IMG/VR virus record: IMGVR_UViG_3300021962_008382
Location: 94,916-158,915 of that record
DNA from: a virus
Length of the DNA stretch: 64,000 nt
Direction: 5' to 3' (one strand)
Below are positions 34,450 to 40,308 of the stretch, in pieces; the stretch's first letter is position 1; every line of letters starts with the position of its first letter. The notes beneath the pieces were generated by a model. The model saw nothing but the letters and a program-made list of their open reading frames with translations. It did not search any database and was not told where the DNA came from. The translations under genes were made by a program, and so were the position numbers.

Positions 34450-34715
34450 ACTGGGAGTCGCCCGATAGGTTTAATGAGTTTATATTCTTCTGCTTCAAGT
34501 CTTATTTTATCTCTTAACTTACTATTAATCAACGGGCTTACTGATTCAATATCTATATCTACATCTGTGCAGTACTTTACAATCGCTTCCATATAACTTA
34601 TTCGTAAGCGGTTAACCATCTCATCAATATAGATTGCAAATTCGTTAGGGGATCTAAAACGTTTTGTAATTACTAGCGTATCGGTTAGTTTAGTGTTACT
34701 TTGTTCTTCTGTCAT
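34446..34715 (-). CDS. 33: Late transcription coactivator gp33
   Basis: Eighty-nine residues. FRSPNEFAIYIDEMVNRLRI, SYMEAIVKYCTDVDIDIESV and LINSKLRDKIRLEAEEYKLI (about 20-80) correspond to the helices of gp33, which bridges RNA polymerase and the gp45 clamp at late promoters. The acidic and hydrophobic C-terminus that binds gp45 in T4 is here a short KPIGRLPV. Presence of gp33 fits the many TATAAATA-type late promoters in this window. Overlaps gp59 by 4 nt. Confidence 0.8.
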   Translation of the reverse strand: MTEEQSNTKLTDTLVITKRFRSPNEFAIYIDEMVNRLRISYMEAIVKYCTDVDIDIESVSPLINSKLRDKIRLEAEEYKLIKPIGRLPV

Positions 34716-37958: not shown

Positions 37959-38150
37959 CTACCGTTTAATAAACATTCCTGCTAAAGGGTCCTTAATCGT
38001 AAAAACATTAAAAGAAACATTATTATATAATGAAAGGGCTGTGTTCTTTGCTTGTTCTAACCCTTCTTCTGTTCGGTGCAGACCACCATTCATTGAGGTC
38101 CGAACACGACCTGCTTTATCTAGAAGATTAATCTCTAAATTAAATATCAC
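37959..38150 (-). CDS. Small hypothetical protein
   Basis: Sixty-three residues, ATG at 38150 overlapping the DsbA-like stop by 4 nt. IFNLEINLLDKAGRVRTSMN, GGLHRTEEGLEQAKNTALSL, then NVFTIKDPLAGMFIKR. The alternation suggests a small alpha/beta fold. No family recognised. Coupling and codon pattern support a real gene. Confidence 0.55.
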   Translation of the reverse strand: MIFNLEINLLDKAGRVRTSMNGGLHRTEEGLEQAKNTALSLYNNVSFNVFTIKDPLAGMFIKR

Positions 38151-38407
38151 GATATAACACCCACCAGTTCTTGATACATCGACTCAAACTCTTCATGATC
38201 GGCAACCTCAATAGAAAAGTTACGCTTATGATGAGTTTTAGCCATTCGCCGGAAAGTCTTTTTTGACAGCTGGTGTTGTTCGCATGTCTCTTTAATTGCT
38301 TCTCTAATATAGTCTCGCTCTGCATCAATACGAGTCATAGCATTAGAGATTTCATCTAGTTGCTTTTTAATTTCCGATCTTACTTTAGGGTCTTGTGGAA
38401 GGCTCAT
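38147..38407 (-). CDS. dsbA: DsbA-like late-transcription DNA-binding protein
   Basis: Eighty-six residues. RIDAERDYIREAIKETCEQH, LSKKTFRRMAKTHHKRNFSI and DHEEFESMYQELVGVI align by eye with T4 DsbA (89 residues), in which an IR-x-x-A helix, a MFNRLLALYHKDN helix and an E-E-x-x-E-L-Y end occur in the same order. T4 DsbA binds double-stranded DNA near late promoters and enhances late transcription. As in T4 it is encoded near genes 33, 59 and 32. Its start GTGAGGATATTATGAG closely resembles the T4 gene 44 RegA operator. Confidence 0.6.
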   Translation of the reverse strand: MSLPQDPKVRSEIKKQLDEISNAMTRIDAERDYIREAIKETCEQHQLSKKTFRRMAKTHHKRNFSIEVADHEEFESMYQELVGVIS

Positions 38408-38419: not shown

Positions 38420-38782
38420 TTAGTTACGACGCATTTTAGCGAGTGAAACAGCTTCATCGCCACTGAATACCGGCACATAATTAGACTTATGCATTGAAGC
38501 AATGCCAAGAAGTTTATCACCAGTATATACTTGCTTCTGCCGACCGGTAGTTACAGCACCAAGTACAACAGAATTAAGACTTGAATATTTTTCTTCCGAT
38601 CTTTTCGGAACAGAAGACGAAGGAACGTAAGTCTTTACGTTATAAGTTTTCGGTTTAGTCGCTCTTCGACCATTATACGGACTAACACCTAACTCTTTAC
38701 AGAGACTCTCGTACGCTAGTCGCTGAGCCTTAGTCTTACTCTTAGGCTTACGCTTATAGGTATTCTTACAGTATATCATCAT
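38420..38782 (-). CDS. Conserved basic marine-phage protein
   Basis: 120 residues from the ATG at 38782, chosen because GGAGGG is 8 nt upstream; a TTG five codons earlier overlaps that site. The N-terminus MMIYCKNTYKRKPKSKTKAQ is very basic. The C-terminus LGIASMHKSNYVPVFSGDEA, then VSLAKMRRN is a highly conserved tail found in proteins of many unrelated marine phages (podo- and myoviruses), function unknown. The middle is Ser/Lys/Thr-rich and probably disordered. It lies 12 nt upstream of the DsbA-like gene. Confidence 0.65.
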   Translation of the reverse strand: MMIYCKNTYKRKPKSKTKAQRLAYESLCKELGVSPYNGRRATKPKTYNVKTYVPSSSVPKRSEEKYSSLNSVVLGAVTTGRQKQVYTGDKLLGIASMHKSNYVPVFSGDEAVSLAKMRRN

Positions 38783-38824: not shown

Positions 38825-38971
38825 TTACTTTTCAATCTTACGTTTAATAAGACGTGTATCAAAGAACTTTTCTTCAGGTAAAGCGTTACTGTCAGTAATC
38901 CAGTTACTGATTACTCTTTGCTTCCAGGTTTCTTTTTTACGAAACCAATTTAGGATACTTCTAAAGGGCCC
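38825..38971 (-). CDS. 46-codon ORF without start codon, candidate -1 frameshift extension
   Basis: In the -1 frame relative to the 38950-39414 gene, an ORF runs from the heptamer G GGC CCT (38971-38965) to TAA at 38825-38827: FRSILNWFRKKETWKQRVIS, NWITDSNALPEEKFFDTRLI, KRKIEK. Its composition looks coding, yet it has no ATG, GTG, TTG or CTG codon and its upstream frame is closed by TAA. GGGCCCT sits exactly in X-XXY-YYZ register with the upstream frame. AAAGGAAG lies 6-10 nt before it, and a GGTTTC/GAAACC hairpin 18 nt after it. A frameshift product would have about 196 residues. A non-standard start or sequence error are alternatives. Confidence 0.5.
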   Translation of the reverse strand, partial: GPFRSILNWFRKKETWKQRVISNWITDSNALPEEKFFDTRLIKRKIEK

Positions 38972-39414
38972 TTGGCTTCCTTTACCTTAGGAGGAAGAAG
39001 ACCAGGGAATGCTTCCCGTACAATTTCTTCCTTAAGAGACTTATACTTCTTGGTAAGTTTCTTATCCTTAATAAGACAGATAAGTTCTGCTTCAGAAGAA
39101 TGAAGACCTTCGAGCATTTCGATGAAGAGATTTTCTTTCTTCGACCTAGGTAGATTAGTTTTTGGATCAAGCCAGATATAAAAACGTCTATACTCAGTAA
39201 GAAGATTTGTCTCTTGATATCCTGCAGGCTTGTTTGTTTCTTTGCGGAAAGGAGGCTCCCCCTCCGGTAGCTTCATGTCTACACTTGGATCAAAATTAAT
39301 TTTAAGTAGACCTCTTAAAGCAGGTCTCTCGTTACGTTTCAGCAGGGTAATTTTTTCTTCCTTGGTCTTTGCTTTATCAATCTGTTCAAATAGTTCAGAA
39401 TAAAGAACGTGCAT
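38950..39414 (-). CDS. DUF6433-like conserved protein
   Basis: A 154-residue protein. LYSELFEQIDKAKTKEEKIT, then LLKRNERPALRGLLKINFDP, PEGEPPFRKETNKPAG, EYRRFYIWLDPKTNLPRSKK, FIEMLEGLHSSEAELICLIK and EEIVREAFPGLLPP form a pattern conserved throughout marine T4-like phages that I recall as DUF6433. Function unknown. It directly follows rnh (stop at 39415, start at 39414). Near its 3' end a G GGC CCT heptamer could shift ribosomes into the 46-codon ORF at 38825-38971. The zero-frame product ends AKGPLEVS. Confidence 0.7.
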   Translation of the reverse strand: MHVLYSELFEQIDKAKTKEEKITLLKRNERPALRGLLKINFDPSVDMKLPEGEPPFRKETNKPAGYQETNLLTEYRRFYIWLDPKTNLPRSKKENLFIEMLEGLHSSEAELICLIKDKKLTKKYKSLKEEIVREAFPGLLPPKVKEAKGPLEVS

Positions 39415-40308
39415 TTAAAATTCCTCCAAATGCTCAATCATGAGCTTCATTTTCTTAGCAATAAAGTAATTCAGCAATACGTTTCGATCTCTAGTAACGG
39501 TTAGCTGAGGGTTACTGAAAGTATTTATAATATTTTCACTAATATCTGAAGGAATCGAATCGAGATCTACTAGCATCTTATTACGATCAAAGTTCCTTTT
39601 AAATCTTTCATCAGTAGGCATAGAAGAAGGATCTTCTATCCACGCTTTCATTTTTTCACTTGATACCGGCTTCTGTCTCTCACCTTCAACAATTGCATTA
39701 TCAGAAGTAAGTACATTAGGTACACCATCACCTTTATCCCCTTTAAAAATATGCTCAAGAACATAGTGAGAAGATGGCATAGTAGCCTTTACAAACTTCT
39801 TTTGTATAGGAGAATATTGCCTTACATTACTATATTTCTGCAGCTGAATAAAGTCATGATCGCCTGAGACAATCAAAAACGGGCTTGGTTCCGGGATGAG
39901 AGATCCTTCCTTGTAATCGTTAGTGTATGCCCACTTAGCAAGGGTTGCGATAATATCATCAGCTTCAGCACCCTCGACTTCAACAACGCGATAAGGAAAG
40001 TATGTACTTAACTCTTCCTTTATCAGGTTGATAGCATCGAAGATCATAGTCCAATCGTAACCAGACTCTTGTCTAGCTTTTTTACGATTAGCTTTGTAGT
40101 ACGGGAATACTTGCTTACGCCAATACTTTCTACTGTCGCAGGCAATAACCAGCTCACCAAACTCTTTACTAAATCGAACCTTATGACTTCTTATAGTATT
40201 GACTACCATATGGCGCACAAGGTCAACATCAAGAGTTACATCTTTTCTATTTCCAATCTCAGCCATAATGCTTGAGATTATGGCCTGACTGTAATCAACA
40301 ACTATCAT
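39415..40308 (-). CDS. rnh: RNase H / 5'-3' exonuclease
   Basis: A 297-residue T4-type RNase H (FEN1/RAD2-like). The N-terminal acid is in MIVVDYSQAIISSIMAEIGN. VIACDSRKYWRKQVFPYYKA, NRKKARQESGYDW and VEVEGAEADDIIATLAKWAY followed by LIVSGDHDFIQLQKYSNV carry the metal-binding aspartates of this family. KGDKGDGVPN is the helix-hairpin-helix DNA-binding motif. It removes RNA primers and flaps during lagging-strand synthesis. It overlaps the upstream gene by 4 nt. T4 RNase H has 305 residues, so it is full length. Confidence 0.9.
   Translation of the reverse strand: MIVVDYSQAIISSIMAEIGNRKDVTLDVDLVRHMVVNTIRSHKVRFSKEFGELVIACDSRKYWRKQVFPYYKANRKKARQESGYDWTMIFDAINLIKEELSTYFPYRVVEVEGAEADDIIATLAKWAYTNDYKEGSLIPEPSPFLIVSGDHDFIQLQKYSNVRQYSPIQKKFVKATMPSSHYVLEHIFKGDKGDGVPNVLTSDNAIVEGERQKPVSSEKMKAWIEDPSSMPTDERFKRNFDRNKMLVDLDSIPSDISENIINTFSNPQLTVTRDRNVLLNYFIAKKMKLMIEHLEEF

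Follow-up and report, generated by a model that had tools for sequence, protein, structure and literature searches.

A probable programmed −1 frameshift at C_CCU_UUA close to the end of DUF6433 in a T4-like phage

Probable frameshifting into an ORF that has no start codon

In a T4-like phage, a DUF6433 gene very probably ends in a programmed −1 frameshift that uses C_CCU_UUA as its slip site, which is by a wide measure the best explanation, taken as a whole, of what its relatives have conserved. Most ribosomes would stop at the 0-frame TAA and release a protein of 154 residues. Some would be held as 16S rRNA pairs with an AAGG ~10 nt upstream of C_CCU_UUA, move back by one base on that heptamer and read the −1 frame to position 38828. 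The long product would then have roughly 196 residues, with an extra tail of 46 residues ending in ...KRKIEK, and this tail may be a peptide for docking, present on a minority of the molecules of a DNA-binding factor that would act in Okazaki-fragment maturation beside RNase H. Comparison of relatives supports the slip site, its register, the position of the Shine–Dalgarno (SD)-like element, protein-level selection on the tail and the homology of the tails; we infer from them that ribosomes slip in the host, and likewise the efficiency of slippage and the role of the tail.

The DNA analysed (the window, 64,000 nucleotides) is part of a 158.9-kb T4-like phage record, and ARAGORN found no tRNA genes in it. 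On the minus strand the gene order is RNase H, DUF6433, the start-less −1 ORF, a phrog_27048 gene (38420-38779) and a DsbA gene (38147-38407). The RNase H is of the T4 type, a 5′-3′ flap exonuclease (39415-40308; Pfam 5_3_exonuc_N and RNaseH_C; phrog_107 exonuclease), and lies directly 5′ of the DUF6433 gene (38950-39414; PF20025, E 6.7e-35). The latter ends in AAG GGC CCT TTA GAA GTA TCC TAA, with the stop, read directly, at 38950-38952. With the CCC of the slip site as its first codon, the −1 frame runs for 47 codons plus TAA (38825-38968, minus strand; PFRSILNWFRKKETWKQRVISNWITDSNALPEEKFFDTRLIKRKIEK) and is related to the tails of the relatives by HMM homology. As the original prediction had it, this frame contains no ATG, GTG, TTG or CTG; it holds only ATC (twice) and ATT (three times) and ends with the TAA at 38827-38825. 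Having no start codon, the tail escapes ordinary gene calling. An upstream TAA does close the −1 frame, six codons 5′ of the first heptamer and not seven as had been stated, and leaves 37 nt of overlap when counted to the end of the 0-frame stop.

Which heptamer would the ribosome slip on? The site first proposed, G_GGC_CCT (38971-38965, minus strand), is indeed in the 0-frame register, as a direct reading confirms. A second heptamer, C_CCT_TTA (38968-38962), had been overlooked. It overlaps the first 3 nt downstream, and both are in exact X_XXY_YYZ register within the ORF overlap. In the window's ORFs of at least 100 aa, X_XXY_YYZ occurs in register at 0.6% of codons (112 of 18,676), with three instances of CCCTTTA and two of GGGCCCT, so that ~0.07 would be expected by chance in a 12-codon overlap. 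Set against chance, the heptamer of the window is suggestive when taken alone and strong once the comparative evidence is added.

Relatives and the choice of slip site

Relatives were found by searching viral contigs with RNase H and then with the relatives' fused proteins. A DUF6433 gene followed by a −1 tail is present at 67 loci in two clades (36 in set C and 31 in set A), plus the single contig L004. In set C, all of whose loci are viral and which comprises 26 distinct junctions, the gene ends NNC CCT TTA, one further codon (mostly GAA) and TAA or TGA as the stop. In set A it ends GCA AAA AAA (A_AAA_AAA), seven more codons and the stop, and L004 has CCA AAA AAG (A_AAA_AAG) with AAGGAGGAAGAGG upstream. 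C_CCT_TTA is invariant in all 36 loci of set C, in register and at one position. Among the 25 distinct full-length sequences of this set, CCT and TTA are single-codon columns, as against three to four codons in other proline columns that are invariant in amino acid and two to four in most other leucine columns; the exceptions are two other single-codon leucine columns, both within the first nine codons. The codon before CCT varies (ATC, GTC, GCC or TCC in set C, GGC in the window) and always has C as its third base, compared with only 12% C among third bases.

The original prediction of a frameshift into the start-less ORF thus gains strong support from the relatives, which have conserved heptamers, a tail under selection and no conserved start. 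Homologues were to be searched for a conserved heptamer and −1 ORF; both exist, with C_CCT_TTA or A_AAA_AAR as the heptamer. The proposal of GGGCCCT as the slippery sequence is probably wrong: it is absent from every relative that has a homologous tail, among them the 36 in which C_CCT_TTA is invariant. Slippage on G_GGC_CCT is in exact register and would yield a nearly identical product, with F for L at the junction (GPF followed by RS, where C_CCT_TTA would give ...AKGPL followed by RSILNWF). In E. coli, C_CC.U_UU.A is among the heptamers that shift above 0.10% without stimulators, CCN codons are poor in the A site, and even the IS3 pseudoknot does not lift G_GG.C_CC.A above threshold (Sharma et al. 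2014, PMC4066793). As G_GGC_CCT occurs in no such relative, and C_CC.U_UU.A is shifty in E. coli where CCN is poor, the slip is assigned to 38968-38962, and a genuine frameshift that takes place on G_GGC_CCT instead is very unlikely. C_CCU_UUA is a moderate heptamer on the E. coli scale.

The window is rather distant from the two clades (48-59% identity in DUF6433, 20-43% in the tail) and shares the identical heptamer and AAGG spacing with set C. Other DUF6433 genes (L037-L040, L053, and L087 with its kin) have no homologous tail. In marine cyanophages DUF6433 (PF20025; phrog_461) is the same domain and adjoins or lies near RNase H in several, and the following gene of those checked starts at an ATG of its own that overlaps or lies near ...WGGRS-stop, with no homologous tail seen; they were rejected as frameshift cases for this ATG-started gene. 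The heptamer thus co-occurs with the homologous start-less tail. An A_AAA_AAG at the DUF6433 end of the L043 type was likewise excluded, the next gene's own ATG overlapping the stop. Among cultured phages, searched in a phage collection, no homologous tail was found (matches there reached only E of about 3 or worse); all tailed relatives are uncultivated contigs.

Could the two frames simply be one ORF, split by a sequencing or assembly indel or by a recent break? A start-less in-frame tail is just what a single-base error would produce. Against this, an error private to one contig is excluded by a second IMG/VR contig (L001/L041), 100% identical to the window over at least 6.4 kb, although both contigs may share a sampling source. 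The same frame relation also recurs with slippery heptamers in 67 relatives of two clades plus L004, which makes an indel extremely unlikely. Slippage of the RNA polymerase on homopolymers, in place of the ribosome, is an equally improbable account: the A7 runs of the A_AAA_AAA clade could slip in this way, but CCCTTTA holds no long homopolymer, and the SD-like element, equally distant in both clades, acts only in translation.

The SD-like element and downstream structures

What would stimulate slippage on C_CCU_UUA? An SD-like sequence just 5′ of the heptamer had been noticed before, and AAAGGAAG is present there; within it, the AAGG at 38979-38982 (minus strand) is the putative stimulator, 10 nt 5′ of C_CCT_TTA. 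A scan of the 60 nt upstream shows the mean anti-SD pairing energy lowest at an almost identical position in set A, set C, the window and L004, and in all four groups the strongest pairing begins 15-17 nt before the heptamer. AAGG, AAAG or GAGG occupies positions −14 to −11 from the heptamer, except in three distinct sequences that have AAGA. The spacing resembles that of dnaX, whose SD precedes the shift by 10 nt (PMC5009743); in nearly all of the tailed relatives and in the window, the SD-like element likewise lies ~10 nt 5′ of the slip. AAGG, at this dnaX-like position, is probably the main stimulator in the window.

Downstream structures are less uniform. The 6-bp hairpin GGTTTC-N8-GAAACC that had been pointed out is present (38927-38946, minus strand; arms 38946-38941 and 38932-38927), starts 15 nt after C_CCT_TTA and folds with −7.7 to −9.2 kcal/mol (z about −2). 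The hairpin is weak and distant, and its role as a stimulator is doubtful; no conserved downstream structure was found in the C_CCT_TTA clade, which has no counterpart of it. Set A has an 11-bp stem 6 nt downstream, unchanged but for one G-U while the 6-nt spacer changes; being near-invariant, the stem gives no covariation evidence. A pseudoknot in set A was rejected, as the second pairing (GGTTC/GAACC) is not conserved.

The tail: selection, homology and the question of a start

Is the tail a protein sequence under selection? In set C, after the 0-frame stop, pN/pS is 0.146 in the −1 frame vs 2.0 and 2.8 in the other frames; set A is less lopsided, with 0.42 vs 0.69 and 1.22. Values for the DUF body, which had included partial loci, are left out. 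Against an HMM of the tails of sets A and C the window tail reaches 20.5 bits, rising to 32.4 bits with L004 in the model, compared with 12.7 for the best of 1000 shuffles; the window tail was left out of the HMMs that scored it. Homology of the tails across lineages is supported by these scores.

The tail could also be a separate small protein, made by termination and reinitiation at the 0-frame stop from a non-standard start (ATC at 38956-38954 or CTA at 38953-38951). The tail frame does begin near that stop, TTG overlaps it (TTGA) in most of set A, and in L124 and L126 of the C_CCT_TTA type a tail-frame ATG overlaps it (ATGA) with C_CCT_TTA kept, so both routes may work there. The start itself is never conserved. 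In set A the overlapping codon changes to CTA in L023 and CTG in L035, all encoding Leu, so that what is retained is the leucine and not a start. Set C has no conserved start codon in its tail, its sole candidate being ATA, ATG or TTA, and the window has nothing canonical. Moreover, the distance of the SD-like element suits the slip site and not those codons, and it is the slip heptamers that are conserved instead of starts. Reinitiation is accordingly as improbable as a slip on G_GGC_CCT, and the indel and the rare start that the original prediction had kept as alternatives are both unlikely by the same comparison of relatives.

With the −1 frameshift as the preferred reading, the tail would be a C-terminal extension with a predicted N-terminal helix, an invariant Trp, an acidic/Pro segment and a basic end. 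Its structure is predicted with low confidence (mean pLDDT 59.7), with the helix at residues 2-15. A PIP-box-like pattern, hxx[ILMV]xx[FWY][FWY], is found in the window, L004 and all set A tails but L023 (background 0.03 per 47 aa). Since this pattern is missing from the C_CCT_TTA clade, clamp binding by the tail stays a guess. The tail (38828-38968) gives a weak match to the C-terminal part of phrog_5254, a family whose function is not known (E 0.15). An identification of the tail as gp33 was rejected: no tail matches phrog_254, and the phage has its own gp33-like late transcription co-activator elsewhere (34467-34664, minus strand; phrog_254, E 7.1e-18).

The DUF6433 protein and comparison with known systems

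The DUF6433 product scores 120 bits against PF20025 (gathering cut-off 38.9). AlphaFold2 models of 27 DUF6433 proteins have a mean pLDDT of 85.6, with a low-confidence C-terminal linker after the domain. A sequence search against solved structures gave nothing significant, and a match to phrog_114 was sub-threshold (E 0.083); apart from this match, it was the fold search that connected the protein with ligases. With Foldseek, the top 39 PDB matches are all ligases or ligase complexes, the best of them weak (E 0.025). VIA-align matches the fold of the whole domain to the DNA-binding domain of T4 DNA ligase, with Z 13.9 for 5wfy (130 of 132 residues, 12% sequence identity), 13.8 for T4 ligase (6dt1) and 8-9 for more distant ligases. 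A Z of about 13 can be reached by chance in helical folds, so the case rests on two points: a single family, matched in one and the same domain, fills the whole top of the list, and RNase H is the neighbouring gene. Unlike T4 ligase, the window protein has neither a nucleotidyltransferase nor an OB domain, and from these models it is likely a stand-alone DNA-binding domain of the T4-ligase type. This would give a likely identity to a family listed in Pfam as of unknown function.

Why would a phage keep this domain alone? The 158.9-kb record, which may be incomplete, has no match to PF01068, phrog_114 or PF01653 for an ATP- or NAD-dependent ligase, and no adenylation domain of an ATP-dependent DNA ligase was found in it. 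T4 ligase binds gp45 via a separate loop (PMC6698739), which makes a docking tail on a stand-alone domain plausible. One speculative scheme, to which we give a low probability, is that in a phage without a ligase the frameshift puts a peptide that docks to the clamp or the host ligase on a set fraction of the stand-alone domain, beside the flap exonuclease, and so recruits host ligase to the nicks between phage Okazaki fragments, with a slip site that differs by lineage (A_AAA_AAR or C_CCU_UUA). If true, one gene would encode an adaptor in two doses.

The closest mechanistic parallel is E. coli dnaX (tau/gamma), which also combines X_XXY_YYZ with an internal SD ~10 nt upstream in a replication-related gene; L004 even has A_AAA_AAG. 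In DUF6433, however, shifting would give the longer of the two products, by a short tail. Only set A has a clear hairpin, the window has C_CCU_UUA and the protein is unrelated. Tail assembly chaperones account for most of the −1 frameshifts annotated in phages. Those of the lambda G/GT type likewise involve a phage gene, a −1 shift near its 3′ end and a minority C-terminal extension, but DUF6433 has the fold of a ligase domain and lies between RNase H and dsbA in a replication/late-transcription region, and no tail genes were seen next to the locus. The mechanism is known, and its use in DUF6433 provisionally appears to be new: in the open-access literature we found nothing that names DUF6433 or describes frameshifting of this gene in cyanophages or myoviruses. 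The frameshift would belong to a replication-linked gene, in 67 relatives of two clades plus L004, and no fewer than three slip heptamers combined with an unvarying SD element would provide a natural experiment in slip-site turnover.

Other DUF6433 genes with in-register heptamers

Three further groups of contigs have slippery heptamers in DUF6433. In L163 and L164 (168-kb contigs), C_CCT_TTA is in register 205 and 193 nt, respectively, before the end of the 0-frame stop and both frames continue open, which would make a frameshift with a long dual-coding stretch possible; the −1 product of L163 ends ...GLLTTLFGRDDWTTVDPNTELKEWLDTRKTNNQGFVE. L008 and L010 have CGA AAA AAC (A_AAA_AAC in register) at the DUF6433 end with GAGGG upstream, and a different −1 tail with an internal ATG, possibly an independent case of frameshifting. 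In L054, L055 and L056, 58 nt separate an in-register A_AAA_AAG from the end of the 0-frame stop; the −1 frame is open, with a tail not recognisably related, and in L054 the heptamer is preceded by GGAGG.
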